From a virus, in the IMG/VR virus record IMGVR_UViG_3300043411_002794, positions 1-64,000 of that record: a DNA stretch of 64,000 bases; one strand, 5' to 3'. The position numbers and the translations under genes were made by a program. Numbering within the stretch: the stretch's first letter is position 1; each line of letters begins with the position of its first letter. This document shows positions 4,546-63,987 of the stretch, piece after piece. The notes under the pieces were generated by a model, which was not told the DNA's origin, made no database searches, and saw nothing but the letters and a program-made list of their open reading frames with translations.

Positions 4546-7500
4546 CTACACAGTACCAGAAGGCCCCGGATCGATCATCTTCATTATGCTTTCGGACGCA
4601 CGCGGGATCGCTGCCCGCACCAGACCCATCCCGGCACCCATGCCCGCGGCCTGCACCCGCTCGCGGTCGATCGTCTTCTGGGGCAGCTCGCGGCCGTAGT
4701 ACGTGTCGAGCAGATGCCGCATCACTTCGTTCATGGCCAGGCCGCCGACGGCGCCGATGGCCGGCTGCACGATGAAGGGAGCAGCAGGGTGCGTGACGAG
4801 CTCGTGGAGCCCGGCTTCCTTTCCGATGGTGCGGCGAACAGTTTCTCCCACATAATCCGGCATCATGTCAGCAATGACTTTGCTGGCGCTGAGTTGGCCG
4901 GCAACATGTGGAAGTTGGTGCAAAATCGGAGACAGCCATGTCCCGTTACGACGCATTTGCGGGGCATAGTTCCAGTTGCCGAAAAAGCGACCGAGTTCCA
5001 GCGCTTTACCCAATGTCGAGTGCGCCCCTGCAAGATGCGCTGCTGTTTCATCCAACAACGGTTCTGCTGTCCTCGCGATAAACGAACGACTCCGCCTTGC
5101 CTTAGATGCGAGTCTGGCCACGAGTGGAAGGCCGGCAGGATCGGCATTGTTAATAAGCCCGTGCATTACTTCATGCCGCCGCGTATTGATCGCCGAAAGG
5201 CTTGGCGGCGTACGAACAACACCAAGACCCATACCCGGATAATACGTACCGTCGGATTGGCTTCCCTTCATCGCATAATCCACGTCAGAAGAACGTACCG
5301 ACGTGCGACCACCAACAGCCCGTAGGTTAAACCCGCTCGGCGTATCCGGGTTGCCGATCTTGCTCGGCCGTACCATCGTGAACGTGCGGCGACCAGCAAG
5401 CATCTTCGGGATACTGGCAGCTTCCTTTTCGGACTCGTCTGCCCCGGCCGGCACGCCTGCCAAGGTCTTGGCGGCCTGTAGGCTGCGCGTTCCCACCGCG
5501 CGCAGGGCATTACCGAAGCCCGCTTCCTTGTCCTGCTCGCCGTCGGCGATTATCGCACCGCCTTCGCACCGTGCGATTTTTTTAGCTGTCAGAGCTCCGG
5601 TACCCGAGACGTCCATCCCCAGGGCTTCAAGCAAGTTCTGGACCTGCGGCTGAGACAGAAAGTCAGGGCTCAGCGGTACTTGCGGCTCTTTCTTCCACCG
5701 CGGCAGGGGCTCGACGCCCGCCTGCTTGGTTGCCTTTTCCTCATCCTGTCGTGTCGTTTTCGGTTTTTTGGACTGTAGTCCGCGATAAAGTCCATACCCG
5801 CCCAGCGATGTCGCCGCGCCGCCGAGCCCCAGCTTGGCGACAAGCACAGCAAGCTCCCGTTGCGACGGTTGCGACGGTTGCGACGGTTGCGACGGTTGCG
5901 ACGTCGCAGACTGTCCGCTGCGAATAACTTGCGGACTAGCCGGCGTACGGCGGGGGGCGGCGATGCGCCGCACCGTCGGCACCACTTTCTTGACAGCCGC
6001 CACGGCAGGGGCAACCGCATCTGCGGTCGGCAGCAATTTCGCCGGGTTGTAAAACGCGTGATCGAAGACAACTCCGCGACCGCCATCATTGCTGGGCGGC
6101 ATCATCCCGTGCATAAAACTTCGCAGCAGGTTCTGATTTTGCGTGTAAGAGGCTTCAGTGGGATAAGCAGCACGCTCCGCATCATTCAGCGCAAAATCCC
6201 ACAAATCCGTCAACCGCTCTTTGCCGTACGGCGTGATCTTGTGGCCGTAGCCTCCCCCCAACAATGCCGCATAATCACCCTTCAAAAAATCAAGCGACCC
6301 GCGAGGCTCCACCGTCCGATAATTCCCAGACGGTACGCCTTGCCCCTTGGCGGCTGTGAACCACTGTTCCCCGACATCCTTAAAATAAGATTTCGCGTCA
6401 TCCACCGGCAGCCCAAATGAACGACGCAGCAGCTCACGACGCATGTCGGTTGTGTCGGCCTCATACCAGCCGTGCGTCGTCGACTTAGCGCCCGGGCTTG
6501 AATTCAACGCACTCTGTAGCACCTTCTCTGCATCGTACCCAAACGGGTCTACCCGATCGATTACGTGCTCAAGTGCCTTGTCGGCGTACGGGAAATGTCG
6601 TGCAATTCTGCCGGCCGTTTCAGCGATATCCGGACCGTATTGCGTACTGAGCACGGCGTCGGCCCCCATGGTGGCGAGCAGCCCTTGATGGGCAGTACGC
6701 ACGACATTACCTGCCAACTGGCGCGTGCGATCTAATACCCGTGGCGGCCGAACCGCGCCCGTCGGCAGTTGTGGTCGATGTAGCCCCGGGATGCGCGGAG
6801 CTACCAAGAACTTAGCGGCCCTCCCCGCTGCAATTTCCATGGCATTCGGGGGCTTTGCTGTCGGTTTGAGCTTGCTCGCCAACGACCGCAACTGCAGCTT
6901 GAAACCAGCCTGCTTCGTGACCGAGTGCTCGGCCGCCGTGTCCGGCGAATCGGACTTGGCTTCCATCATTTGGTAGATGCTCTGGGGCATCAGCCCCAGC
7001 GTGGCCGGCCAATCGATCGCTCCGGCCTTCTTCTCGGTCTTCTGGCACTCGTGGCACAGCTCGGCCCGCTTCTCCCGGATCAGCTTCCCGCCGTGGCATC
7101 GGCAACCTTCGATGCGATGGCCGCAGGATCCCAGCACGCAGCCGTGTCCCATTGTGAGACCGTCCATCTGGTCGTCGGTCAGCGGACCGTTGTACGACTC
7201 CCAGAGGGAGCGATCATTTGCCATTTTTTCCGTCTTCGGTTTTTCTGGTCGTAACCAGCGATAGAGTCCGTAACCACCGGCCGCGGCCGCTGCACCACCA
7301 AGCCCCCACTTTGCTGCAGTCGGCATGTCAGCCCAAAACTGCGACATACGAGACACTCCGGACGACGCTGGCGGTGAAACAACTGGCGGTGAAGCGGCGG
7401 TCGGCGTCGCAGCCGCGGCATCGCTAGTTGCTGGTACAGTCTGCGTCGCTACAGCCGCAGACGGCGGCAAATTACGCGGCGCACCGCGCTGATTCAACAA

Positions 7501-9210
7501 ATACGCACCCGTACCTGCGGCAGCCGCAGCACCGCCAAGCACAACTGGTTTAAGTTTATTCGACGCATTCGTGACGTCGATTACGGCATCACGCACGGGC
7601 GAAAGTACCGCAGCCGGCGTCGCCCCGCCCGCCGGTTTACCAGGATAATATGCCGGGCTCGGCGTACGTAATGCTTCCTGCATCGCGAGACGGCCGCGCG
7701 TAGTAGAAAGCCACATACGGTTTGCAACAGCTTGCCCGCCAGGCAGCTGACTTAATTCACTAACAATCGGCGTAAAATGCTGGGATTGTGCGCCGGTACT
7801 CCGTGCGCGACCACGCAAGGCGTCCTCAATCACAGCCAGATCGCTGCTTGGTTGAATTCCGGCCCGTGCATTTCGCCATGTTTGTGCCAAAAAACTACGC
7901 GTAGCCGGAGCCGTTTTCGGTACAAGCGTGCCGAACAAGTTGAATTTACCGGCCTGCTTGAATAGCGACCCCGGCACCTGGTTGGCCGGCATGTGGATCC
8001 GGAAGTTGGTCGGGATGTGCGTTAGGCCCGCAAACCGACCTAGTTCGGAATCCACCCGGAACGCATCCGGAGTTTCTGCCAACAAGGCCTGCAGGATCCC
8101 GTGCTTGGCCGGATACTGCTTACGATCAGAGTGCTCCTTGGCCCGGAGCAACCTCGCGAGCGCGCTCTCCCCTTCATTCGGGATAGCCGCTCCGCTCTTT
8201 GCCGCTCCGCCCAATGCATTGTTGCGGGTGCCGAACGCAGCGTTCCCGTTGACGGTCCCCGGGGCGCCGAGACCGCTGTAGCTGGTGATCGGGTGAATGC
8301 TCGGGCTGTTACCCGGTCCCACAGACGTCCCGGTTCCCGGCTGGTCGCCGGTGGCGCCTGACTGGAAACCAATGGCCTGCTGGGCGCCGTCCGTTTGGTG
8401 GAAGCCTGGGGGCGGAGCGTCGGTCTTGGTCTTCTTTGCCAGCTCGGCTGCCTCTTCCGCCTGACGGGCCTGCAATGCGTGCAGGGCGGCCGCTGTGGGC
8501 GTTCGGAGGTGTCCCATGTGTGGAATGACCAGTTTCGCCTGGAGCGTCGTAACCGGCACAGGAGCCGCGGCACGCTTGGAAGCCGCATCCGCGAAGAATG
8601 ACCGGACCGGCCCGAAACGGCCATTATTCCTGGCCCCGAACTCTGCATTAACCCTGGCCAGATAAGGACTTACGCCCTCCAAATCCTCGTACTCATTGGC
8701 CGAAGATTTGGTTTCCAAGTCCACCATGCTTAACAAGCTTACCGGAATATGGTCCGCCTGGGCCGCTTTTGGCCGCATTTGGCAGGCATCCGCCTGGCTG
8801 GCCAGAGCTAGAAACCGGCTGAAGGGGCCGTCCGTGAGCCCTGCCAGAGCCATTTTGGTCCGGGCTAAGCCGTCCTGCAGACAGACAATCGGGGTTTGAC
8901 CCTCCGAAACCTCGCGATCAACGGCGCGGAGGCTGGGCAACTTATGGGCGAGTTCGATCGCCTCATTGAGGTTGGCCTGCTTGTGCTGCACGTGCTCAGG
9001 CAGGTGCTTGAGGTCCTTCGTATGCTCGGCCCAGCGGTGAGCCATCGCAGGGTGGTTCGCAAACATAAATTTGCGCTGGGCCTGAGACTTGAATGGCATG
9101 GCACGAGCCTCCTGCTCGCTGTGCATCGGGGCCGCGTAGGCGCCGATCTGAAAGAGAACGCAGACTGCTGCTAGGCAGCCCAAGGATACACGATAGGCTT
9201 GGTGGAACAC
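4546..9210 (-). CDS. giant virion-like protein with metallopeptidase motif (1554 aa)
   Basis: Seen: a GTG start at 9210 with GAGGAG eight bases upstream gives a signal-peptide-like N-terminus (hydrophobic VSLGCLAAVCVLFQIGAYA, then AP). An ATG at 9099 with AGGAGG eight bases upstream gives 1517 residues beginning MPFKSQAQRKFMFANHP, a module I recall from the start of phage proteins. Inside are glycine-zipper hydrophobic segments followed by Trp/Tyr-Arg and KPKT, a Cys/His-rich patch near 7050-7140, a QPS x4 repeat, and HEVMH (residues about 1346-1350) with DETAAH about 40 residues later, a gluzincin-like zinc-peptidase arrangement. A K-x-A-G motif recurs seven times. Inference: an internal or ejection protein of the virion, possibly a processed polyprotein. 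No family assignment was possible for the whole chain. Confidence 0.7.
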   Translation of the reverse strand: MFHQAYRVSLGCLAAVCVLFQIGAYAAPMHSEQEARAMPFKSQAQRKFMFANHPAMAHRWAEHTKDLKHLPEHVQHKQANLNEAIELAHKLPSLRAVDREVSEGQTPIVCLQDGLARTKMALAGLTDGPFSRFLALASQADACQMRPKAAQADHIPVSLLSMVDLETKSSANEYEDLEGVSPYLARVNAEFGARNNGRFGPVRSFFADAASKRAAAPVPVTTLQAKLVIPHMGHLRTPTAAALHALQARQAEEAAELAKKTKTDAPPPGFHQTDGAQQAIGFQSGATGDQPGTGTSVGPGNSPSIHPITSYSGLGAPGTVNGNAAFGTRNNALGGAAKSGAAIPNEGESALARLLRAKEHSDRKQYPAKHGILQALLAETPDAFRVDSELGRFAGLTHIPTNFRIHMPANQVPGSLFKQAGKFNLFGTLVPKTAPATRSFLAQTWRNARAGIQPSSDLAVIEDALRGRARSTGAQSQHFTPIVSELSQLPGGQAVANRMWLSTTRGRLAMQEALRTPSPAYYPGKPAGGATPAAVLSPVRDAVIDVTNASNKLKPVVLGGAAAAAGTGAYLLNQRGAPRNLPPSAAVATQTVPATSDAAAATPTAASPPVVSPPASSGVSRMSQFWADMPTAAKWGLGGAAAAAGGYGLYRWLRPEKPKTEKMANDRSLWESYNGPLTDDQMDGLTMGHGCVLGSCGHRIEGCRCHGGKLIREKRAELCHECQKTEKKAGAIDWPATLGLMPQSIYQMMEAKSDSPDTAAEHSVTKQAGFKLQLRSLASKLKPTAKPPNAMEIAAGRAAKFLVAPRIPGLHRPQLPTGAVRPPRVLDRTRQLAGNVVRTAHQGLLATMGADAVLSTQYGPDIAETAGRIARHFPYADKALEHVIDRVDPFGYDAEKVLQSALNSSPGAKSTTHGWYEADTTDMRRELLRRSFGLPVDDAKSYFKDVGEQWFTAAKGQGVPSGNYRTVEPRGSLDFLKGDYAALLGGGYGHKITPYGKERLTDLWDFALNDAERAAYPTEASYTQNQNLLRSFMHGMMPPSNDGGRGVVFDHAFYNPAKLLPTADAVAPAVAAVKKVVPTVRRIAAPRRTPASPQVIRSGQSATSQPSQPSQPSQPSQRELAVLVAKLGLGGAATSLGGYGLYRGLQSKKPKTTRQDEEKATKQAGVEPLPRWKKEPQVPLSPDFLSQPQVQNLLEALGMDVSGTGALTAKKIARCEGGAIIADGEQDKEAGFGNALRAVGTRSLQAAKTLAGVPAGADESEKEAASIPKMLAGRRTFTMVRPSKIGNPDTPSGFNLRAVGGRTSVRSSDVDYAMKGSQSDGTYYPGMGLGVVRTPPSLSAINTRRHEVMHGLINNADPAGLPLVARLASKARRSRSFIARTAEPLLDETAAHLAGAHSTLGKALELGRFFGNWNYAPQMRRNGTWLSPILHQLPHVAGQLSASKVIADMMPDYVGETVRRTIGKEAGLHELVTHPAAPFIVQPAIGAVGGLAMNEVMRHLLDTYYGRELPQKTIDRERVQAAGMGAGMGLVRAAIPRASESIMKMIDPGPSGTV
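5859..5903. repeat. 9-bp tandem repeat, five units
   Basis: Five perfect copies of GTTGCGACG on the plus strand. On the minus (coding) strand they encode a (Q-P-S) repeat in the giant protein, probably a flexible linker between domains. Confidence 0.9.
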
Positions 9211-39042: not shown

Positions 39043-39453
39043 TCAGTCGACATTTTGTGGCACGGCCGGTGTCGAACACTGTAGGTCGTAGGCCTTGTCG
39101 AGTTCCGAGTGATACAGGTGATGCTCGGCAAAATGTGGCGTAACGATACCCGGAAAGAGCATCACATAATCGCCCTCTTCGTTGAGCAGCCCCCATACCG
39201 GTACGCCCGGCGCACTACTGCGGGGTACTGCCTCCGGGTCGTACCAGTGGAGCCGTCGCAGTTCAAACTCAAACATGGTGTCCAGCAAATGTGCAACCCA
39301 TTCCGTGCAACCCGTGCCGGAGAGCAGCTCGCTGCGGTTGAACATCTGCTTGATCTGATCCGGAGTGGGCTCCGGGTCATAAAGCATGAAGTGTTGTTTA
39401 CCGAGGCCGCGAATGTGATCGCCAAACGTATACAGAGAAACGGGAGCGATCAT
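39043..39453 (-). CDS. hypothetical protein (136 aa)
   Basis: Unrecognised alpha/beta protein (FMLYDPEPTPDQIKQMFNRS, then GLLNEEGDYVMLFPGIVTPH). The ATG overlaps the polymerase stop as ATGA, so it is probably co-translated with the polymerase. Confidence 0.65.
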   Translation of the reverse strand: MIAPVSLYTFGDHIRGLGKQHFMLYDPEPTPDQIKQMFNRSELLSGTGCTEWVAHLLDTMFEFELRRLHWYDPEAVPRSSAPGVPVWGLLNEEGDYVMLFPGIVTPHFAEHHLYHSELDKAYDLQCSTPAVPQNVD

Positions 39454-42400
39454 GCGGCCATTGCCTCTTCATAGGTCTTGGGCGGATTCAACATCCACCG
39501 CGGAAGATTGCGCTCGGCAACTTCCTCTTCACTGATGTGCTCACCCCAGTGGATGAACATTTCTTTGTCGATGCCGAAGTAGTACGGCCCCGCATTCAGC
39601 GGCGTGCCGTCCAGGTCCCGTGGTTGGAACGGAACCGACGTCATGCAGCGGGCCATCGTGTCGTAATAAACACGGGCCGCATGCTCAACGGGCACCAACA
39701 GAATGATCGCATCGTGGATCTGCAGCATCAGATGGTAGTAGAACTCGCGGGGATCGAACTGTTTGCGGTAATCAACGAAGTTGAACAACATCTCGTTGAC
39801 CGCTTCGGCCACGCCGTTTTGAATCCCGAAGTTCTGGAACTGCCGCTGCTGCTCGCCGATCACTTGGCGGTCATTTGTGGACTGCAATCTTCGATAGCTA
39901 AGATACGCTCCGCTCATCCAGTGCTGGTTTACGGCCCGTTCACGACAGCGGGCCAGATAAGCATCAACGCCGGAATAGTCATGCAGGTAGCTATCGATCA
40001 TCGCCTGGCACTGATCAACGGTGACGTTCACGCCTTCTTCGGCACACTGCCGGGCGATGGCTTCCGCCGACCGCCCGTACGGGATACCGAAGTTCACGTT
40101 TTTGGCCGCCACATAAAGGCCCTTGTTGCCGGAGTCGCTAAGACCCTTCTTCGTCGGAGCGCACGACAACTGAAACGTGGAACAGGCCCGGCGGGCATGC
40201 ATACCGAAGTAGTCCGGATCGTCCTCTTCCAGATCATTACGCCGGACGTGTTCGATCATCAGCGTATCCTGGGCCTGCCAGGCCAATACGGCCAACTCGG
40301 CGCCCTTGATATCTGCTTCAATCCCGACGTAGCCCGGCGGCACGGTCAACACGGAGCGGATGGGATGGTGATACAACCGTTCGACGCGGAAGATGTCCTT
40401 GTAGGCGCCGTTCAGAATGCGGTTGTAATCGTCCTCGCGTCGCTTCGAGATGTTCTGCAAATTCGGCCTGCGACTGGCAAACCGACAGGTTTCGAGCGTC
40501 TGCAATAAGTGCGTCCGCACCCGGCCGTCGGTACACATGGAGCCGAGCAGGCCGGCGTCATACTCGAAGTTGCCGTCTTCGTCCCGGTTGAACTCTCCGG
40601 TCGATTCATCCTGCGTCGGTTTCCGCAGCACGGTCTTAACGACCTGCGTAAGAAACTTGAGGTCACGAAGCTGCCGCGCAAGCGGATTACGGTGGCCCAG
40701 GATGCCAAGCACTTCTTTGTCGACGGACGGGGCGAAGTTGCCGTCTTCGCGGCGATTGATCAAATCGACCCACAGCTTCTTCCGCTTGCCGGTACTCGTG
40801 ATCGGCTGCAGTCCCAGCGACACAGGTTCCGGATGACCCGGTTCCGGCGTCGGTCGGATCCGCACGAACTGCCCGGTCTGCTTGTCGCGCTTACGGGCAT
40901 ATTCGTCACCGAACAACATGGCGACGCATTGCGGATGGCTCTGATGATTGAAGTTCGGCCAGTTGAGTTTGGTGCGCAAGTCGGCCAGCAACACTTCGCT
41001 GGCCTGCAAGAACACCGAGGTCAGCTCGTCCGCCCGATCCTTATCGATCTGGAAGCCGCACCGTTCCATCTCCAACACCGCCGCAGAGGCTTTGTGATGG
41101 CGATGATACGCGGCCCAGCAGTTGTTACCGAACCGATCGGCGTCCAACAACCCGCCCGGCTTCGTGTGCTGCACGTGGATCCGCAGCGTCACGTCTACGT
41201 CGTAGCAGCCGTAGTGCGGGTTCGTGTCGCCCCGTCGCAACTTGTCAGGGCACAACACTTCCGCCGGACATTCGCCGTACCCTTCCAGGTCCTCGAACTT
41301 GAGATGGTTCACGCTGCAGAAGCGTTTCTTCCATTCGCTCAAAGCCGTGTCGTAGCGAGGACACGTCGTGAGCTTCATGGCCACTTCTTCCAGCTTGAGC
41401 CGTGCCGTCTCGTTAATCGAGTGATGCTCTAACGACGTATCCCAACCGCCCGCACGCGGGTCCGCAGGATCCGGGAAGTATTCGTCCCGTACGTCGAGCC
41501 CCTCGTTGACGAGCCACGGCATATCCGCCCGAAGGAAGTGCCCGCCAATCTTCACCCGACGCCCCGGCGTGCTCTTGCAAAGCCGCCGCATATGGAACAT
41601 CAGGCGTTCGATCGACGGAGAACAGGCCACGGCGCCGCCAGGATGCCGAAGCACCAAGCAGCGGGCCCACTTCTCCTTGTAGGTGAACTGGATCGTACGC
41701 ACGTAAGATCCGGGCTCGCCCGGCTGCTCTCCGTGCCACTCAGCGTCCAGCGCGATCGTGCTGTTCTGCTCCACCGGCAACGCCAAGATCTCGTCCACAA
41801 CGCGAGACAACTCCCGCTCGGTGTAGATGTTGCCGTGATCGACATCCTTCTCCTCGGCTCCGACCTCGCCTCCGTTGATCATGTGCCAGAACAGCCGCAG
41901 CTGCTCCATGAACGGATCTTCAAGCTCAGGTGTCCGGTGCACGGCAGCAGGATGCAGGGCCGCCATGACGCGGATCTTATGCATCTGCGGCTGCTCACCT
42001 TCCCGAGCTTGCAGCGGAACCTCAATATCGATCACCCGGCCGTGCATGTTCGTGACACCGAACGACGACCCGAGCACCGCCTTAGAGGCTTCGGAGCCGA
42101 GACAGAGCAGGTACTTCGGCCGCACGAGCCGCAGCTCTTCGTGGAGCAGCGGCAGGCAATTCTTGATCCACGTCGTCGGCATGCTGCCGAGATTCGGATC
42201 AAGGGCCCCGTGCTTCACGAGGTTGGTGACGTACCAGCTATTGGCGACGTCGGTCGGAATGCCGAGCTCGTACACCGCTTTGTGCAGCTCATCGCTTGCC
42301 GGGCCGATGAAGTTGCATCTGCGCGACAACTCATCCTGCCCGGGCTGCTTGCCGAGAATCATGACGTCCGACTGCATCGGGCCGCCGCCGAAGTTGTCTG

Positions 42401-42752
42401 TGGAATAGCCCCACAGATGCCCCGGCACAAACTGAGCCGGCAAGAGCCGACCCTTGAGATCCACCTGGATCATAAACGTCGGGTCATACAGAGCCCGGCG
42501 ATAGAGGTAGTGCAAACACGGACCAATGGATCGCAGGCGTTTATTGACGCCCGTGCCCATGAAGACCGTGTCGGTGTCGCCCATCAATTCTGCTTGCCGC
42601 AGGAAGTCGGGTCCCGGCAAGGGCATCCCGACGGCGTCCAGCGGATAGAACGGGAATTCGCGGTCGAGATGTTCGCTCGGTCGTCCCTGCAAAATCCCTG
42701 AAAAAGCTTCCAACGTCTGTTCGTAGCTCGTTGGAACGGCAGTTGTCGTCAT
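39450..42752 (-). CDS. DNA polymerase I-family protein with N-terminal UDG-like domain (1100 aa)
   Basis: Three domains. (1) Residues about 120-300: family-4/5-type uracil-DNA-glycosylase-like, with GKQPGQDE (motif A position), SWYVTNLVKH, LLCLGSEASKAVLG and ALHPAAVHR. (2) About 330-525: 3'-5' exonuclease with LDAEWH (ExoI), GHFLRADMPWL (ExoII, near 404) and YGCYDVD (ExoIII). (3) About 590-1100: family A polymerase, with EADIKGAELAVLAW (motif A), KNVNFGIPYG (motif B) and LQIHDAIILLVP (motif C, HDA rather than HDE). It would be the replicative polymerase. A UDG-like extension occurs, to my knowledge, on SPO1-type phage polymerases and may not be catalytic. A copy of the repeated motif lies 11 bases before the ATG; no Shine-Dalgarno sequence is seen. 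Confidence 0.92.
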   Translation of the reverse strand: MTTTAVPTSYEQTLEAFSGILQGRPSEHLDREFPFYPLDAVGMPLPGPDFLRQAELMGDTDTVFMGTGVNKRLRSIGPCLHYLYRRALYDPTFMIQVDLKGRLLPAQFVPGHLWGYSTDNFGGGPMQSDVMILGKQPGQDELSRRCNFIGPASDELHKAVYELGIPTDVANSWYVTNLVKHGALDPNLGSMPTTWIKNCLPLLHEELRLVRPKYLLCLGSEASKAVLGSSFGVTNMHGRVIDIEVPLQAREGEQPQMHKIRVMAALHPAAVHRTPELEDPFMEQLRLFWHMINGGEVGAEEKDVDHGNIYTERELSRVVDEILALPVEQNSTIALDAEWHGEQPGEPGSYVRTIQFTYKEKWARCLVLRHPGGAVACSPSIERLMFHMRRLCKSTPGRRVKIGGHFLRADMPWLVNEGLDVRDEYFPDPADPRAGGWDTSLEHHSINETARLKLEEVAMKLTTCPRYDTALSEWKKRFCSVNHLKFEDLEGYGECPAEVLCPDKLRRGDTNPHYGCYDVDVTLRIHVQHTKPGGLLDADRFGNNCWAAYHRHHKASAAVLEMERCGFQIDKDRADELTSVFLQASEVLLADLRTKLNWPNFNHQSHPQCVAMLFGDEYARKRDKQTGQFVRIRPTPEPGHPEPVSLGLQPITSTGKRKKLWVDLINRREDGNFAPSVDKEVLGILGHRNPLARQLRDLKFLTQVVKTVLRKPTQDESTGEFNRDEDGNFEYDAGLLGSMCTDGRVRTHLLQTLETCRFASRRPNLQNISKRREDDYNRILNGAYKDIFRVERLYHHPIRSVLTVPPGYVGIEADIKGAELAVLAWQAQDTLMIEHVRRNDLEEDDPDYFGMHARRACSTFQLSCAPTKKGLSDSGNKGLYVAAKNVNFGIPYGRSAEAIARQCAEEGVNVTVDQCQAMIDSYLHDYSGVDAYLARCRERAVNQHWMSGAYLSYRRLQSTNDRQVIGEQQRQFQNFGIQNGVAEAVNEMLFNFVDYRKQFDPREFYYHLMLQIHDAIILLVPVEHAARVYYDTMARCMTSVPFQPRDLDGTPLNAGPYYFGIDKEMFIHWGEHISEEEVAERNLPRWMLNPPKTYEEAMAA

Positions 42753-53580: not shown

Positions 53581-53921
53581 TATGGGTTGAAAAACCCCGC
53601 GATATACGCGGCAGTTTCCTTAGGACCAAACAGTTGGTAGCCCTCCGGGACAAATACTGCGTCAGGGCAGTCCGGATTATGGCAGAACGGGCACTGATGT
53701 CGCCCGCGTCGTACGCGGAGCCGCACGTCGTACGCCGTCTTGGTCAGCTTGGCGTCGAACTCCGCGAACAGCGGCTGCATGCCGTTGACGATGCGGACCC
53801 CGGTCGGCCAGGAGAACGTGTTCAGCTTGTCGGCACGGATCCGCCCGACCTGCCGCAGCAGCACGTGCATCCGTGCCTCGGCCTTCTTGTAGAGTTCGTC
53901 AAACAGTGCTTCCGCGTCCAC
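53580..53921 (-). CDS. hypothetical zinc-binding protein (113 aa)
   Basis: Begins VDAEALFDELYKKAEARMHV at a GTG with GAGG six bases upstream; the longer in-frame sequence upstream is shadow of the HldE gene. Seen: a helical N-terminus and CPFCHNPDC near residue 76-84, a compact zinc site. Overlaps HldE by 23 bases. Function unknown. Confidence 0.6.
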   Translation of the reverse strand: MDAEALFDELYKKAEARMHVLLRQVGRIRADKLNTFSWPTGVRIVNGMQPLFAEFDAKLTKTAYDVRLRVRRGRHQCPFCHNPDCPDAVFVPEGYQLFGPKETAAYIAGFFNP

Positions 53922-55347
53922 TGAGAACCTCAGCAATCTGCGTGGTACTAAAGTTGGGTAGCATCGGGATGAAGACGACTTCACCGCCGCGGGCCGCCAC
54001 GAAGTCGGCACCGACCACATTCTGGTCGATATACTCGTCGCCCTTGAACAAAAACTGCGGATGAATCGCTTTGATGATATCCAGCGGTGTGTCGTCGTCG
54101 AACTCGACGAGGGCATCCACCAGCGGCAACAACAAAGGGCGACGCAAAGAAGCGTCACCAACCGGACGACCGGGACCCTTCAACCGACTGATCGACGCAT
54201 CGGAATTGGCGGCGACGATCAGTACGTCGCAACGACTGCGGGCCTGTTGCAGTAAATACACGTGCCCTGGATGCATGAGATCGAAGCAGCCGTTGGTAAA
54301 GCCGATTCGCTTGCCCTTACGATGCTGCCGGGCCGCATACTTGGCGACCTCTGCGTCATTCATCAGCTTCCCGGCGTCGCCTTTGAGGCCCAGCACGAGA
54401 TCTTCTAACTCGTCGCCGCCGATAGTGACGGTGCCGTAACGAGAAACCGCCATAGCTCCTGCCAGCGTTGCCCGGCGGGCGGCTTCGCAAACACCATGAC
54501 CAGCCACGACTCCGGCGACAAGCGTCGCCAGAAACGTGTCACCGGCCCCGGTCACGTCCGCCACCTGGTGGTGCGACGCATCGGTGGACGAGTCCCGGTC
54601 GCCGGCCAGCAGCACGGATCCGGCGGCGCCCAGCGTCACGCACACGGCCGAGATCTGCGGATGTGTCCGCAGAATCTCCCGACCGTAAACGATCCCGTGC
54701 TGCACAGGATCATCCGTCTCCAGCGCCGGGTGCAACACCGGCCCGGCCATTGCTGCCGCTTCCCGCAGGTTCGGCTTCAACATGAACACCGAACCGTACT
54801 CCTTCAGGTACTCCGGCTTAGTGTCGACGTAGAGCGGTAACTTGTACGACTCGCACAAATTGCTGATGACATTGCGCAGGCCGTCCAGCGTACCCTTCCC
54901 GTAATCCGAGACAACGACGGCGGACGGCTGCTCGTGCAACAGGTGATGCAACGAACGAACGTACTCCGCCTGCACTTCCGGCGGATCGTAGAGCTTCGGA
55001 TACGTGGTATCGACGCGAAGCAACTGCTGCCCGGACGCGTAACGGTGCTTAACCTCCGGAGGAACCTTGCTGGCGTACCCTGCCCGCATATCGACACCAT
55101 GAATGGCCAACATGCGGCAGATCCGCTCGGAGTCAGGACAGTCATGACAATCAACACGCCGCCCGAAATACCGCGTACGGATCCCGAGCGAGCTCAGGTT
55201 CATCGCCACGTTCCCGGCGCCGCCCGGAGCTTCAATCGTCTGCGTGGCGACGAGCACCGGTACGGGCGCTTCCGGAGAGCAGCGAGACACGGTGCCGGTC
55301 GTCCACCGATCCAGAAACACGTCGCCGAGAACGAGGACCCAACTCAT
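53899..55347 (-). CDS. hldE: bifunctional heptose-7-phosphate kinase / heptose-1-phosphate adenylyltransferase
   Basis: A 482-residue HldE (RfaE)-like protein. The N-terminal ribokinase-family domain has VLGDVFLDRW, GGAGNVAMN and the catalytic DVTGAGDTF (about 267-275). The C-terminal cytidylyltransferase-fold domain has FTNGCFDLMHPGHVYLL (about 348) and NSDASISRLKGPGRPV. In bacteria HldE makes ADP-D-glycero-beta-D-manno-heptose for lipopolysaccharide. Differences: the usual V-K-G-G-D-Y is FKGDEY and the 'ADR' segment is changed to ASLRR, so activity of the second domain is uncertain. Both domains are full length. Possible roles: altering host lipopolysaccharide or supplying an ADP-heptose for glycosylation; unproven. 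Confidence 0.82.
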   Translation of the reverse strand: MSWVLVLGDVFLDRWTTGTVSRCSPEAPVPVLVATQTIEAPGGAGNVAMNLSSLGIRTRYFGRRVDCHDCPDSERICRMLAIHGVDMRAGYASKVPPEVKHRYASGQQLLRVDTTYPKLYDPPEVQAEYVRSLHHLLHEQPSAVVVSDYGKGTLDGLRNVISNLCESYKLPLYVDTKPEYLKEYGSVFMLKPNLREAAAMAGPVLHPALETDDPVQHGIVYGREILRTHPQISAVCVTLGAAGSVLLAGDRDSSTDASHHQVADVTGAGDTFLATLVAGVVAGHGVCEAARRATLAGAMAVSRYGTVTIGGDELEDLVLGLKGDAGKLMNDAEVAKYAARQHRKGKRIGFTNGCFDLMHPGHVYLLQQARSRCDVLIVAANSDASISRLKGPGRPVGDASLRRPLLLPLVDALVEFDDDTPLDIIKAIHPQFLFKGDEYIDQNVVGADFVAARGGEVVFIPMLPNFSTTQIAEVLSGRGSTV

Positions 55348-57321: not shown

Positions 57322-57555
57322 CTAACTTGCCGGGATTTGAGGTCGTACCGACGTCGGTAATTGCGACAACGCCGTTAATTGGCGATCGCGTTCCTCCGGA
57401 CTGACTTGATCACAGATGTTGTCGGCTAACACCTGGTTCCAGAATAACGCCGTGTCCGTGTCGGCGTGGCTGAACGGAGGGTTCGCCACGTTGAGCACGG
57501 AACGACGGGCCGCCGCCACGCGGAGGCAGGAAGTACATTTTCCGCAGCGATTCAT
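57322..57555 (-). CDS. small zinc-finger-like protein (77 aa)
   Basis: Begins MNRCGKCTSCLRVAAARRS; CxxCxxC at the N-terminus and a later Cys (NICD) can bind zinc. A pattern of CxxC, then PP, then W and C is familiar to me from small phage proteins of unknown role. Start overlaps the GHKL gene stop as ATGA. Confidence 0.6.
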   Translation of the reverse strand: MNRCGKCTSCLRVAAARRSVLNVANPPFSHADTDTALFWNQVLADNICDQVSPEERDRQLTALSQLPTSVRPQIPAS

Positions 57556-59252
57556 CGCCGCACCGTCTGTTCTTTGACGCCGGCCACCTTTGTCGCCGCA
57601 GTCGTAACCTTGGTGACTCGATCGATCTGCCGGGCGTGATTCTTATTGTAAGCACCTTCGACGCCGCGCACGATGGACGGGAAATAGTGCAAGGCAGTAC
57701 CCACAAACTCATGAAGCGACTTCATCGTCCAGTCGTGGTACCGCTCGTAGAAATCCTGGCCGTGAATATGCGTCCCCTGGTCGGATTCGTCGTGACTCAG
57801 CTCGTGAATCATGACCTGCCCGTAGGAGATCCAGGCCTCCAGATCGATACCGGTCTTAGCGATGAACTTGCGGTCGATTGCAATGAATTGCTCGCCGTCG
57901 GTCCACGCGTGAGCACAGTCGGACTCCCCGATGTACAGCGCCCGAGTCGACCGACGGATTTCGTCATCAAACTCTTCGCTGTCCTGGGCCGCCCGGCGTT
58001 CGTACTGATAGCTCAGCAGCCGGTACATCGCCCGCCGGATCGTCTTGATGATGATCGTTTCCTGGACCGTCCAGTTGGCCTCAGGGATGATACGGTAGGT
58101 TTCCTTCATCTTGGCCGTCAGATCTTTGAACGGCACAATATTGAACTCGCGATGCGCATCAAACCGATGCGGGCAACTGCACAACACGTGGTAGAGCTCG
58201 TCAAGCGAATCAACGCGGAACTGCTCCAACATATGCTCGCTAAGCACAAAGCCGAGCTTCATTTGCATCAACCGATCGGCCTTCTGACTGCCGTGCTCGC
58301 CGATCGTGAGTTTGCCGTTGAACGCGTCCGGCCGCACCAAGCCGATTGCCCAGTGCCGTCCACAGGCGTCCGTCAACAGCTTCGCACTACTGGGGACGTC
58401 GAGATCTCCGGAGAGCAGCTGATCGATCAACCGCTGCCGAGAACCGTCATTGAGGGCAGGCGCCCGCGTGATCCGTTCCTTAGCCCGTTTGTCGACCAAC
58501 GGCTTGATCTTCTTCCAGACCGGACAGGTCGACATCACCTCGTTGCGGGCGAAGTTGACCGTCAACTGTTGCTTACTGACGACTTCACCGCCGCAGCCGA
58601 ACGTACGATTCGAGTGCGACGTGACCAGCACCCCGCGGTTGTAGACATACAGGTTGCCGGTGTCCCGCAACTTGACGTACGCCTCGTCGGTTTCCTGGTC
58701 CCACTTCTGCTTGGGCGCTTCGAGCGAGATCACCTTCTTGTTGAGCGTGATCTTCGCCGGGACGTACTTAATCCCGATCGGTAAGTCGCGAAGGATGTCG
58801 CAAATATCGGTTTCCCGAATCGGATCGTAGAGCTCGATCTGCACGTCGCAGCCCGGCTTCTCAGCCAGCTTTTCATGCAGATCGTACTCGAGCCCGCGAC
58901 CGCGGATATCGACGTCCATCTTGAACTGGGACGTTCGCCAAGTGTTCTTGCCGAACGCAAAAGCCTGCCCGCGTCCCATGCGAAACTGACCATAGGTCTT
59001 TTTCTCGTGCTCTTCGGGCGGCTGGCCAAACGTACGCCAGTACGTTTGGATGTGTTTCTTATCGGTCATACCGGTCCCGTCGTCGACGACGCGGACCGAC
59101 TTCGTATTGAGCGTGATCTCGATGTTCTCCGCCTTCGCGTCGACAGCATTCATCACCAGCTCAAAGATCGCTTTGATCAGCGTGCCCGCCTGACGACGAA
59201 TAACGTCGTACAGCATGTGCGGGTGCATCCGGAAATCGTGTTTTTCTGCCAT
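57552..59252 (-). CDS. GHKL (HSP90/MutL-type) ATPase with HEXXH metallopeptidase motif (566 aa)
   Basis: Two parts. (1) Residues 25-110 are a Bergerat-fold ATP site: ELVMNAVDA (N-box, E31 and N35), VVDDGTGM (D57), and GRGQAF (about 93-98). (2) Residues about 475-510 hold MIHELSHDESDQG with THIHGQDFYERYHDW, an HExxH zinc-peptidase-like motif followed by further His and Asp. GHKL domains in phages and defence islands (MORC/MutL-like, topo VI B-like) couple ATP-driven dimer clamping to nuclease or protease domains. Here the chain reads like an ATP clamp joined to a metalloprotease; the order and spacing are unusual. AGGA lies four to five bases before the ATG at 59252. Function unknown; DNA repair, virion processing or defence are open. 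Confidence 0.75.
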   Translation of the reverse strand: MAEKHDFRMHPHMLYDVIRRQAGTLIKAIFELVMNAVDAKAENIEITLNTKSVRVVDDGTGMTDKKHIQTYWRTFGQPPEEHEKKTYGQFRMGRGQAFAFGKNTWRTSQFKMDVDIRGRGLEYDLHEKLAEKPGCDVQIELYDPIRETDICDILRDLPIGIKYVPAKITLNKKVISLEAPKQKWDQETDEAYVKLRDTGNLYVYNRGVLVTSHSNRTFGCGGEVVSKQQLTVNFARNEVMSTCPVWKKIKPLVDKRAKERITRAPALNDGSRQRLIDQLLSGDLDVPSSAKLLTDACGRHWAIGLVRPDAFNGKLTIGEHGSQKADRLMQMKLGFVLSEHMLEQFRVDSLDELYHVLCSCPHRFDAHREFNIVPFKDLTAKMKETYRIIPEANWTVQETIIIKTIRRAMYRLLSYQYERRAAQDSEEFDDEIRRSTRALYIGESDCAHAWTDGEQFIAIDRKFIAKTGIDLEAWISYGQVMIHELSHDESDQGTHIHGQDFYERYHDWTMKSLHEFVGTALHYFPSIVRGVEGAYNKNHARQIDRVTKVTTAATKVAGVKEQTVRR

Positions 59253-59278
59253 GGTTTCCTGTGTAAACGGAACGGCTC

Positions 59279-60433
59279 TTAGACGGCTTCGTGCACGCGT
59301 ATCGCAACCGGGAAGCGAGGGACAGGCGGAGTGGTCGTCGTCCATTCCTGGAACTTGACCGTCAACTTCCGCCCGAGCAACTGATCGCGTTGGTCGTAAA
59401 GCTCCCGCTTCTGTGCGTGCGTGCCGGGCGCCAAAACATCGAACGTCGCGTTGGTGGTCGGGACGACACAGGTGAAGATAGCCATCCCGGCGTGCGTACC
59501 GCGACCTTCGGTAACTGAGACGATCCCGAACTCCGCGTCCATGAACGTCTTAACCTTGAGAAGATCCCGTGAACGCTTACCGGCCTGATAGGCCTGCAGG
59601 CCGTGTCGCAGCATCGCACCTTCGTAGCCGTCGGCAACGCACGCGGCCTGAAACGACATCACTTCGTCCGGCGTCGCCACCTTAATGGTTTTGACCGGCA
59701 CGATGATGTCGCGAGGCAGCCGCCGCAGCCGCTCACAGGCCGACGAGTAGCGCGATCCGAACGGACCGGGCAACATCGCGTCGTACACGTGGTACTGGAT
59801 CCTGGTCGGATCCACGGCACCGGCCTTCTTCGAGTTACGGATGGCACTGGCGATCTGCTGGAACGTAATGTCGCCGTGCACGAACAGCTCGCCATCGAGC
59901 GTCTCGCCCGGCTGGATCGCGTTTCGCAGGACCTCTTGAATGTGCCCCATCGTCTCAATCAACGTACCCTTCCGCGAATAGAGCCGAATTTCTCCGTCTT
60001 CATTGCGGGCCAAGCAGCGGTGTCCATCGAGCTTGGGTTGCACGAAGGCCTGCTGCCAGTCGACGATGTTGACGTAGTCACCAAAGCTCTCTGCGAGCAT
60101 CGGCGCCAGTGCCCGGCTGGCAGCGGAATCGGCGACGTTGGTCGCGTAGTGGTGCCGCTGCGTCTGGGCCTTATACCGTGCCTCGGCCTCTTTCACGGCC
60201 TGCTGCAAGGGAGTGGTGGCATTCTTCTTGCCGGGGTTCTTGCCGACGGCGATATTGTCGCGGATGACCTGCTTCACACCGCCCTGCCGTCCGTGATGGA
60301 TGACAATGTCGGCCGTGCCGTTTTCCCGGGCTTCGACACGAATGTCCCATTCTTGGACCCCTTCATCCGCGGTCTGTTTCAACAGCGTATCGCCGCGGTA
60401 GGCGACTTCGCCTAATACCTGGTCGGAATTCAT
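59279..60433 (-). CDS. ATP-dependent DNA ligase with N-terminal WGR-like domain (384 aa)
   Basis: Residues 1-95 resemble a WGR domain (WDIRVEARENGTADIVIHHG, then a helix in QQAVKEAEARYKAQ). The catalytic part has motif I VQPKLDGHR with the adenylated Lys at about residue 134, LDGELFVHG (motif III), GYEGAMLRH (motif IV) and LLKVKTF (motif V), then an OB-fold C-terminal domain. It would seal nicks from replication and recombination. WGR-ligase fusions occur in large phages, to my knowledge; the WGR domain may bind DNA. Confidence 0.88.
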   Translation of the reverse strand: MNSDQVLGEVAYRGDTLLKQTADEGVQEWDIRVEARENGTADIVIHHGRQGGVKQVIRDNIAVGKNPGKKNATTPLQQAVKEAEARYKAQTQRHHYATNVADSAASRALAPMLAESFGDYVNIVDWQQAFVQPKLDGHRCLARNEDGEIRLYSRKGTLIETMGHIQEVLRNAIQPGETLDGELFVHGDITFQQIASAIRNSKKAGAVDPTRIQYHVYDAMLPGPFGSRYSSACERLRRLPRDIIVPVKTIKVATPDEVMSFQAACVADGYEGAMLRHGLQAYQAGKRSRDLLKVKTFMDAEFGIVSVTEGRGTHAGMAIFTCVVPTTNATFDVLAPGTHAQKRELYDQRDQLLGRKLTVKFQEWTTTTPPVPRFPVAIRVHEAV

Positions 60434-61668: not shown

Positions 61669-61960
61669 CGCGAATAGTTTCCAGTAGCCGCAAGGCGCCA
61701 ACCGTCGCCTCGTACTGCGCGTCGGTCAAATGCCGCATTAACCCACTGATCGTCACGCACTGTCGTGCCAAATCGTCTTTGCTGACATTCAAAAAGTAAT
61801 TGCGACCCGGTCGCTCCGGTGCCCGCTCCCACGTGCCGCCGCGCGGTAAGTGGTTGAAAAAGTCGTGTTCGTTATCAGTGAACCGAGTACAGAACGCCAG
61901 ATCCGTCCAACCGTGTTCGTTGGACCAGTAGAGCCCATTCTCGTCGACAATGACCCACAT
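61655..61960 (-). CDS. hypothetical protein (101 aa)
   Basis: Unrecognised. ATG at 61960 overlaps the methyltransferase stop as TAATG; a longer frame upstream is shadow of the methyltransferase gene. Trp-rich N-terminus (MWVIVDENGLYWSNEHGW). Confidence 0.6.
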   Translation of the reverse strand: MWVIVDENGLYWSNEHGWTDLAFCTRFTDNEHDFFNHLPRGGTWERAPERPGRNYFLNVSKDDLARQCVTISGLMRHLTDAQYEATVGALRLLETIRDDPG

Positions 61961-63987
61961 TACGCAGCCTGCATTTCGTGTTTCGGAATGTTGGCCTCGA
62001 CCAGAACCTGCGACATCACAGGACAAACCGAATTGCCGATCTTGGCAACCTGATTCGCGGTCGAGCCCGTCAGTTTGTACCCAGCCGCCAACTCCGGCGT
62101 GAACTGGGCGTTCAGCAGCTCTCGCGGCCGGAGCATCCGCATGCCGACGTCGCTGATCAGATACATCTGACCGTCAACCGTCAGAAGCGGCAGCTTGGCC
62201 TTCTTGCCCAGATGCTTCTTGAGAAAGCGATGCACGCGGCGGAAGCCGTCAAACGTCGCCTTGTCGACCTGTTGCTGCAGCTCCTTGTAGACCTGCTTAT
62301 GGTCAGTGAGATCGATCGCGGTCAGATCGGCGTTGACGAGCCCGTTGTGATCGACGGCCGTAACCGTCGAGAGAGGGTCCTCCGGATGCGATCCGACGAC
62401 GCCGCCATAGAACTTGGTAATATGGGCAGCGGAGACGCCCATCGCATGTGCGGCCCCTGCGGGCCTCGCAGCACCTTCGCCGGACGTGATGACGGGCAGC
62501 GGTGTCTCCGCGTCGGTGCCGACGCTGTCGCCCCGCATCTTGGTCACGTGGGCGGCGATCAGCCCAGTGTGCGGGATCTGCGTCTGGGCCGGGGCTGGTG
62601 CGTCCGCCGGCTGACCGATGCTCTGCCCGTTGAACTGAGTGAGGCCTGCCGCGATCTCAGTAATCACCGGCGTAACGACGGCCTGCCGGTTGTCCGTCTT
62701 GACGACGTTCAGCGGTTTATCGACCGGACGCGGCTTAGCGGCGTAGCCGCTGCCGCCAGTACCGACGATAAGCGGTACCGCCGTCGGCTGTACCACGGCT
62801 GTGCCGCGGTGCTGCGTCAACGTATGCAGCGGCCGCGTGACCGGCCCGCCGCGCATATGGTCGGAGCCGTGCTGCGGCTTCACCAAGTAGGCGGGTGTCA
62901 CGGCAAACCGATCCCGCGTCGGGATCGTGTGCAACGGTTCGTCGGCGGCCTGCAACTGCCCGCCCTCGCCGTAGAACTTGTTGATGACCGGAGCAACGAT
63001 CGCCTTGTCGTTGTTGCTGTGTACGACCGAAAGGGGCTGGTCGCACGGCTGCCCGCGAAAGGATCCGCCTTCACCGGACTTCTCACTAAAATGCCCGATC
63101 CGCACGATGAACGGCTTATTTGCCTCGATCACGTAACGGAGCAGCCCGTTGGCCATCCGCCACATGGTCTTGGGTGCCAGCGGTCGCTTGCACTCAATCC
63201 CGGTACGCTTGCGGAGCAACGCTGCTTGCCGCTTCGTGAGAAAGATGCTGGGGCACGGGATGTCCCAGTAGATGCACTCGGCAGCCGTCCGCCAGGGGTG
63301 CATGCCGTGCGGCGCGAGTCCGCTCTTGTCGGGTTTGCCGTGCGTCTGTTTCGGCCAGACGATCGGCTTCCCGTCCCGCCGAGCAATCACGAACAACCGC
63401 TTCCGCGCCGTCGGTACGCCGTAATCGGCCGCGTTGAGCACGCGGGACTCGACCACGTAGCCGAGATCTTCCAAGGCCCGCACCCACCGACGATAAATCT
63501 CGCCTTTACGGGAGTGGATCGGAATCATCTGCGGCTTGCCGTCTTTCTTGACGAGGCGACCGTTCTTCTTCAACAACGTCAACGGGCCCCAGTCTTGGAA
63601 CTCCATGACGTTTTCGAGCATGATCACGTCGGGCAGCACATCCTTCGCCCACTTGACCACGACCCAGGCGAGCATGCGAATCCGCTTCTCGACCGGCTTG
63701 GAGCCCTTGGCCCGCGAATGGTGCTTACAGTCAGGGCTAGCCCAGAACAGTTTCACCTTGCGGCCGAAGGTCGCATCACGGGGATCGACGTGCCAGACGT
63801 CCTCCGTGTAATGCCAAGTCTCCGGATGGTTCATGGCATGCATCTCGATCGCCGCGTAGTCGTGGTTGATCGCGATATGCGGGCTCATGCCCAGGGCCAG
63901 AGTAATCCCCAACGAAGCCCCGCCGCCGCCGGCAAAACTGTCGACGACGATCGGAGCGTTGTGGTTCAGCGTCAGTGTCGGGTTCAT
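61960..63987 (-). CDS. C5-cytosine DNA methyltransferase with repeat-rich recognition region (675 aa)
   Basis: Seen: motif I DSFAGGGGASLG (16-27), motif IV as ASPDCKHHSRAKG (catalytic Cys about residue 87; SPDC in place of PPC), motif VI MLENVMEF, motif VIII ARKRLFVIARR, motif IX region MRMLRPRELLNAQ and motif X GNSVCPVM. Between VIII and IX, about residues 300-570, are six to seven degenerate repeats of 'x-P-L-x-T/V-V...A-V-V-x-P', where the target-recognition domain belongs. It would methylate cytosine C5 to protect phage DNA from restriction. Length is well above M.HhaI (327) because of the repeats. It is the last complete gene at the right end. Confidence 0.88.
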   Translation of the reverse strand: MNPTLTLNHNAPIVVDSFAGGGGASLGITLALGMSPHIAINHDYAAIEMHAMNHPETWHYTEDVWHVDPRDATFGRKVKLFWASPDCKHHSRAKGSKPVEKRIRMLAWVVVKWAKDVLPDVIMLENVMEFQDWGPLTLLKKNGRLVKKDGKPQMIPIHSRKGEIYRRWVRALEDLGYVVESRVLNAADYGVPTARKRLFVIARRDGKPIVWPKQTHGKPDKSGLAPHGMHPWRTAAECIYWDIPCPSIFLTKRQAALLRKRTGIECKRPLAPKTMWRMANGLLRYVIEANKPFIVRIGHFSEKSGEGGSFRGQPCDQPLSVVHSNNDKAIVAPVINKFYGEGGQLQAADEPLHTIPTRDRFAVTPAYLVKPQHGSDHMRGGPVTRPLHTLTQHRGTAVVQPTAVPLIVGTGGSGYAAKPRPVDKPLNVVKTDNRQAVVTPVITEIAAGLTQFNGQSIGQPADAPAPAQTQIPHTGLIAAHVTKMRGDSVGTDAETPLPVITSGEGAARPAGAAHAMGVSAAHITKFYGGVVGSHPEDPLSTVTAVDHNGLVNADLTAIDLTDHKQVYKELQQQVDKATFDGFRRVHRFLKKHLGKKAKLPLLTVDGQMYLISDVGMRMLRPRELLNAQFTPELAAGYKLTGSTANQVAKIGNSVCPVMSQVLVEANIPKHEMQAA

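Follow-up and report, generated by a model that had tools for sequence, protein, structure and literature searches.

Does a viral protein of 566 residues join an HSP90-like ATPase to a zinc peptidase, and what would such an enzyme do for the element that carries it? The gene lies in the window, by which we mean the whole 64,000-nucleotide stretch analysed (the start of a 192,194-bp virus record, IMGVR_UViG_3300043411_002794). There, 57552-59252 on the minus strand translates as a single unbroken open reading frame of 566 codons plus stop, with an ATG at 59252 whose position is consistent with homologue starts. The initial annotation had described a GHKL ATPase and an HExxH zinc motif in this one protein; that pairing is conserved across 93 relatives, and we regard the two-module architecture, ATPase and zincin domain in a single protein, as secure (Table 1). 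The only part that Pfam recognises is residues 26-109, the GHKL ATPase domain (HATPase_c_3, E = 3.4e-12; HATPase_c, 1.8e-06), and none of Pfam, PHROGs, NCBIfam and PADLOC names the C-terminal half. The PADLOC anti-phage defence models gave weak matches to the GHKL segment only, none over the whole protein, and no DNA-binding domain was identified in the 566 residues. The whole-protein AF2 model has a pLDDT of 85.6 and a pTM of 0.60.

Table 1. Features of the ATPase-zincin gene and its upstream neighbour (window coordinates; residues are those of the 566-residue protein)
Feature	Position	Strand	Evidence
Whole gene, 566 aa, HSP90-like ATPase-zincin fusion	57552..59252	minus	translation, Pfam, AF2
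Shine-Dalgarno-like AGGA, 4-nt spacer to ATG	59253..59260	minus	sequence
N domain, residues 1-118, GHKL/HSP90 ATP-binding fold	58899..59252	minus	Pfam, conservation, Foldseek
N-domain motifs: E31 (general base), N35, D38, D57-G59-G61, G88-G93			
Middle (S5/transducer) domain, residues 119-265, HSP90-type	58458..58898	minus	Foldseek, HMM alignment
Middle-domain loop SKxxLxLNxARNEIL, aligned with HtpG SSDLPLNVSREIL			
R236, invariant, aligned with HtpG R336 (HSP90 middle-domain arginine)	58545..58547	minus	
Linker alpha/beta region, residues 266-361, poorly conserved	58170..58457	minus	AF2 secondary structure, alignment
Predicted zincin-type metallopeptidase domain, residues 362-545	57618..58169	minus	profile, Foldseek, domain model, HMM-HMM
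Zincin-domain order: helix, beta-hairpin with GES..AxAWTDGxxYIAI, HExxH helix, long helix			
HELSH, residues 483-487, two predicted zinc ligands and catalytic Glu	57792..57806	minus	
H497, predicted third zinc ligand, start of next helix	57762..57764	minus	model, alignment
H506, near-invariant His of (F/Y)HD motif	57735..57737	minus	alignment
ATP-dependent DNA ligase, directly upstream, 26-bp gap (context gene)	59279..60433	minus	Pfam, PHROGs

The ATPase module and its relation to HSP90

The Bergerat motifs of the GHKL superfamily are present in the N domain (E31 and N35, the DxGxG stretch D57-G61, and a glycine-rich lid with G88 and G93), and the earlier placement of E31 is correct. Conservation was measured on 93 diverse relatives, 76 after filtering at <90% identity. 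N35, D38, D57, G59, G61, G88, G93 and R236 are 100% conserved across the 93, as is E31 in all 92 relatives that cover its position.

When the AF2 model was compared with the PDB by Foldseek, the best 50 matches were all HSP90 or TRAP1 (E down to 1e-15), covering the HSP90 N and middle domains. Within the middle domain, HMM alignment superposes the family loop on the LNxSRE loop of HtpG (SSDLPLNVSREIL), with E of 8e-4 against the middle domain alone and 0.42 for the reversed control against whole HtpG. R236 is equated with HtpG R336 because this alignment pairs the two loops. The fold matches and the arginine loop together argue that the module is HSP90-like in both N and M, and in the predicted structure the ATPase is nearest in fold to those two domains of HSP90. 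Thus the protein shares with HtpG and TRAP1 a GHKL N domain, an S5-fold middle domain and an LNxSRE-type loop with an invariant arginine. Unlike HSP90, its N and M portions amount to only about 265 residues, and the zincin domain stands where the C-terminal dimerisation domain would be. That dimerisation domain is absent, and Foldseek of the C-terminal half alone returns no HSP90. We do not class the protein as an HSP90 chaperone, since its C-terminal half is a separate HExxH domain.

The module had been called HSP90/MutL-type, and the second half of that label holds only for the N-terminal motifs. Their best sequence matches are to MutL and bacterial MORC-like GHKL ATPases (PDB profile matches to PMS2/MutL, E about 2e-7 to 5e-6), but the likeness ends at about residue 80 and there is no nuclease domain. 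Membership of the MutL family over the N-terminal 330 residues was rejected, NCBIfam mutl scoring 27.8 bits where 180 are required. A phmmer search of the single protein against the PDB gave nothing significant.

Phage RIIA also has an N-terminal GHKL ATPase within a large phage protein and is among the fold neighbours in BFVD; we know of no RIIA with an HExxH peptidase domain. These fold matches prompted us to consider an RIIA identity, which we rejected. There is no RIIA sequence match, the relatives are plasmid proteins, and neither PHROGs match is RIIA: phrog_6203, of unknown function, covers the GHKL segment, and the other match is weak and likewise unknown in function.

The C-terminal domain as a predicted zincin

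Modelled alone, the C-terminal domain reaches a pLDDT of 89 and a pTM of 0.81. In order, the model shows helices and a beta-hairpin, then a helix that closes with HExxH; after a loop, H497 opens a long helix. The predicted zinc motif has the pattern HExxH-x9-H. HELSH spans H483-H487, which places its glutamate at position 484 and not, as first numbered, at 482. The ‘distal His/Asp’ noticed earlier corresponds to H497, invariant in 48 sequences, and to the near-invariant pair H506-D507.

The kind of zincin is harder to name, and no single match is statistically strong. The domain belongs to no Pfam, NCBIfam or PHROGs family. A search of its profile through the whole PDB sequence set (E<=10) returned four chains only, Wss1 (5jig, 5xbn) and Spartan (6mdx, 6mdw), all of them DNA-protein-crosslink proteases and all with HExxH and the third histidine aligned; as the individual E-values are 0.2-2.7, only the pattern of matches is informative. 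Foldseek with the domain alone gave weak matches (E>=0.14). The top places went to zinc peptidases (M48 3c37 and BepA); archaemetzincin and Spartan ranked below the M48 peptidases. HMM-HMM comparison (hhalign, local mode, with reversed controls) gave probabilities of 77% for WLM-like, 64% for YgjP and 57% for M48 peptidases, against at most 0.15% for the reversed controls, and low values for SprT (10%), ArdC (4%) and IrrE (0.6%). Accepted zincin families give similar scores against each other. Since the ‘WLM-like’ set was taken from bacterial genomes and overlaps YgjP, its 77% does not represent a pure Wss1 sample. The Pfam WLM and SprT thresholds were missed, the best family members reaching E about 0.018 and the window protein having no match.

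The closest relatives therefore appear to be zincins of the minigluzincin type (WLM/Wss1, YgjP, M48 and Spartan), all weakly similar, and we file the predicted domain as a new family of that type that is neither WLM nor SprT. A specific kinship with SprT was considered and dropped, its HMM-HMM support being no better than that of other zincins. Minigluzincin-type relatives include the zinc peptidases that cells use for stripping proteins off DNA. Like Wss1/WLM and Spartan/SprT, the domain has HExxH followed by a third histidine and an aromatic residue (F/Y) in the next helix. Unlike Wss1 and Spartan, to which its similarity is sub-threshold, the protein shows no SUMO, ubiquitin or PCNA elements and carries its ATPase in cis, where those enzymes recruit Cdc48/p97. 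HMM-HMM similarity to M48 and YgjP is comparable, and the beta-hairpin before HExxH aligns with that of M48. In M48 the third ligand is a distal glutamate, and we know of no ATPase fusions among M48 or YgjP-like peptidases.

Conservation argues for the site. When 48 diverse, site-bearing sequences are aligned over the C-terminal 184 residues, no columns are invariant except T451, H483, E484, H487, H497 and F501. H483 is retained in 87 of the 93 relatives, E484 in 89, H487 in 89, H497 in 87 and H506 in 86, and H483, E484, H487 and H497 are intact in 71 of the 76 non-redundant members. Judged from the alignment, the HELSH motif is not a chance occurrence. Homologues lacking it, which had been named beforehand as evidence against the pairing, are confined to two small clades in which the ligands disappeared jointly. 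Five of the 76 lack the three-histidine site (L026 and L027 from phages; L034, L036 and L078 from Bacillota), and the full set of 93 adds a sixth, the phage member L028. The tree requires two separate losses. Joint loss of residues distant in sequence supports one shared metal site. The six are predicted to be natural pseudopeptidases with an intact ATP site, which implies that the ATPase is valuable without the peptidase and that proteolysis is not always the point.

One phage relative (L022:7995-8879), 51% identical in its N-terminal part, ends after the first 295 residues, and no peptidase half is visible downstream of the shortened gene.

Relatives and genomic neighbourhood

The enzyme had been presented as a phage protein, a description that proves too narrow. 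In PLSDB 202 plasmid records match, 104 of them over at least 80% of the query, and most are labelled just ‘ATP-binding protein’. The carrier plasmids come from Pseudomonas, Acinetobacter, Xanthomonas, Burkholderia, Aeromonas, Paenibacillus and haloarchaea. GenBank phage records gave just two distant matches at E below 1e-5. Scans with an alignment query, by which the IMG/VR relatives were found, located 68 loci in GTDB species genomes and 23 in IMG/VR; a single-sequence protein search of viral contigs gave no match. A tree built from 72 proteins groups the phage members into a single supported set (18 rows), within which two cellular contigs also lie. Plasmids, conjugative elements and large phages thus all carry the family, and most known members are on plasmids and other mobile elements.

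Some members depart from the common length. Four plasmid proteins of ~805-812 aa (L005, L007, L012, L019) carry an extra ~200-residue C-terminal extension with a common end motif, ERNAAAAGF. In five relatives (L082, L083, L089, L094, L059) the reading frame is broken early, at 347, 141 or 180 aa, which suggests decaying copies. In two Acinetobacter plasmids, a gene for an M48-family metallopeptidase lies directly upstream of the ATPase-zincin gene (L017:4078-4818 and L018:4114-4854).

In the window the gene sits in a block that also encodes SbcC-like and SbcD-like proteins, a UvsX-like recombinase, a DnaB-like helicase, a primase, a helicase, PolA with a UDG domain and a cytosine methyltransferase. 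The phage terminase, at 83366-84970 of the record, is about 24 kb from the gene. The polymerase (39450-42752, minus strand) is an 1100-aa protein with a uracil-DNA glycosylase domain at 122-279 and a family A DNA polymerase at 736-1037. The methyltransferase (61960-63987, minus strand; 675 aa) has a long repeat-like insert between its catalytic parts, and cytosine methyltransferases lie near the gene in the phage loci L026-L028, where they are homologues of this one, and in plasmids L006 and L019. A bifunctional HldE-like protein (PfkB kinase and cytidylyltransferase; 53899-55347, minus strand) is encoded within the DNA-metabolism block, and a 1554-aa open reading frame at 4546-9210 (minus strand) has no Pfam or PHROGs match.

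DNA-joining and decatenating enzymes recur beside the gene. Of 22 viral loci, 11 (from two phage clades) have an NAD-dependent DNA ligase near the gene. Among non-viral loci the most frequent neighbour is topoisomerase III (22 of 87 loci, same strand in all 22). Both counts are phylogenetically clustered and do not represent independent events. Topoisomerase III lies 10 bp upstream in five loci (L012, L020, L060, L062, L064) and 220-360 bp away in four (L069, L071, L073, L074). The ATP-dependent ligase of the window is unrelated to the NAD ligases of the other viral loci. A Toprim topoisomerase was searched for in the same phage record and none was found, so the link with topoisomerase III is limited to plasmids and other mobile elements.

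Possible functions

So, what might the protein do? The best explanation, to which we give a probability of a little under one half (about 0.45), is an ATP-controlled metallopeptidase that would cut DNA-bound proteins on the element's own DNA. We infer dimerisation, ATP control of proteolysis and DNA-bound substrates. ATP binding would close the N/M module around DNA or substrate, as a dimer by analogy with HSP90 and other GHKL clamps. On closure, the peptidase would be carried to, or opened for, a protein sitting on the DNA of the element; candidate substrates are covalent intermediates that have become trapped and tightly bound nucleoprotein roadblocks. Cutting the blocking protein could then let ligation, topoisomerase III decatenation or replication finish. 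Repair of DNA-protein crosslinks would fit the nearest solved relatives, Wss1 and Spartan, as well as the neighbouring ligase and topoisomerase III genes.

Well-studied ATP-dependent proteases rely on AAA+ motors. More tentatively, the family may define a class in which an HSP90-type dimeric clamp, not an AAA+ ring, powers or gates a metallopeptidase that clears DNA-bound proteins for phages and mobile elements. If true, ATP would be coupled to proteolysis in a different way, by such a clamp on the same chain as a Wss1/Spartan-like peptidase, and the enzyme would be an ATP-driven protease of a new kind. The protein would also be a candidate bacterial enzyme for DNA-protein crosslinks or nucleoprotein clearing on mobile DNA, giving a testable function to a widespread gene that databases name only ‘ATP-binding protein’. 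The domains themselves are of known kinds; neither their combination nor the concept of an ATP-dependent protease of HSP90 type appears to have been described in the literature searched. That search, outside which most subscription papers and all bioRxiv preprints lay, found no pairing of a GHKL or HSP90-like ATPase with a metallopeptidase. A jumbo-phage survey, the one paper found to mention both a GHKL ATPase and a zincin, lists GHKL proteins and SprT-like peptidases as separate proteins (PMC7824862), and a MutL/MORC survey names no peptidase fusions (PMC2292703).

Among the alternatives, the protein could be an ArdC-like establishment factor that shields incoming plasmid or phage DNA from restriction, by cutting or occluding restriction enzymes. 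We consider this unlikely. ArdC of plasmid R388 joins an ssDNA-binding domain to a Spartan-like metallopeptidase domain, and its protease activity is unnecessary for antirestriction (PMC7213743), a precedent that keeps an establishment role in view and that the pseudopeptidase members would match. Like ArdC and MPTase-PolyVal, the protein carries a metallopeptidase domain, fold-related to Spartan, on mobile elements, and the element classes are the same (conjugative plasmids and phages). The cytosine methyltransferases near the gene also fit. However, the partner domain is an ATPase here, no ssDNA-binding domain was found in the protein, the HMM probability to the ArdC peptidase is only 4%, and the third metal ligand, a glutamate in ArdC, is a histidine in this family. 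The gene also lies in replication and repair blocks, beside topoisomerase III or ligase, and no early-entry cluster was identified.

Somewhat less probable is that the protein works as a chaperone or remodelling clamp of HSP90-like type, with a zinc domain that mainly binds clients or is structural. The HSP90-like N and M domains would suit it, as would an essentially invariant ATP site in a family that twice lost its zinc site, and RIIA, a structural neighbour, is a GHKL phage protein that is not a peptidase. Yet the catalytic glutamate, and not the metal ligands alone, is kept in 89 of the 93 members, and the zinc-site residues are among the sole invariant positions of the C-terminal half.

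Zincin peptidases of mobile elements often cleave repressors or other specific proteins, and an ImmA/IrrE-like regulatory peptidase, with ATP binding as its switch, could do the same. Some family members do lie near regulators, but IrrE/M78 gave the poorest HMM match (probability 0.6%) and the neighbour clusters show no conserved adjacent repressor gene, so that we find this role distinctly improbable.

Large phages have head-maturation proteases, and a part in head maturation had been proposed for this one. Although proteases with such a role are known (PMC7824862), this reading is very unlikely because capsid-less plasmids and integrated elements carry the gene, and in the window it belongs to the DNA-replication and repair block, well away from the terminase.
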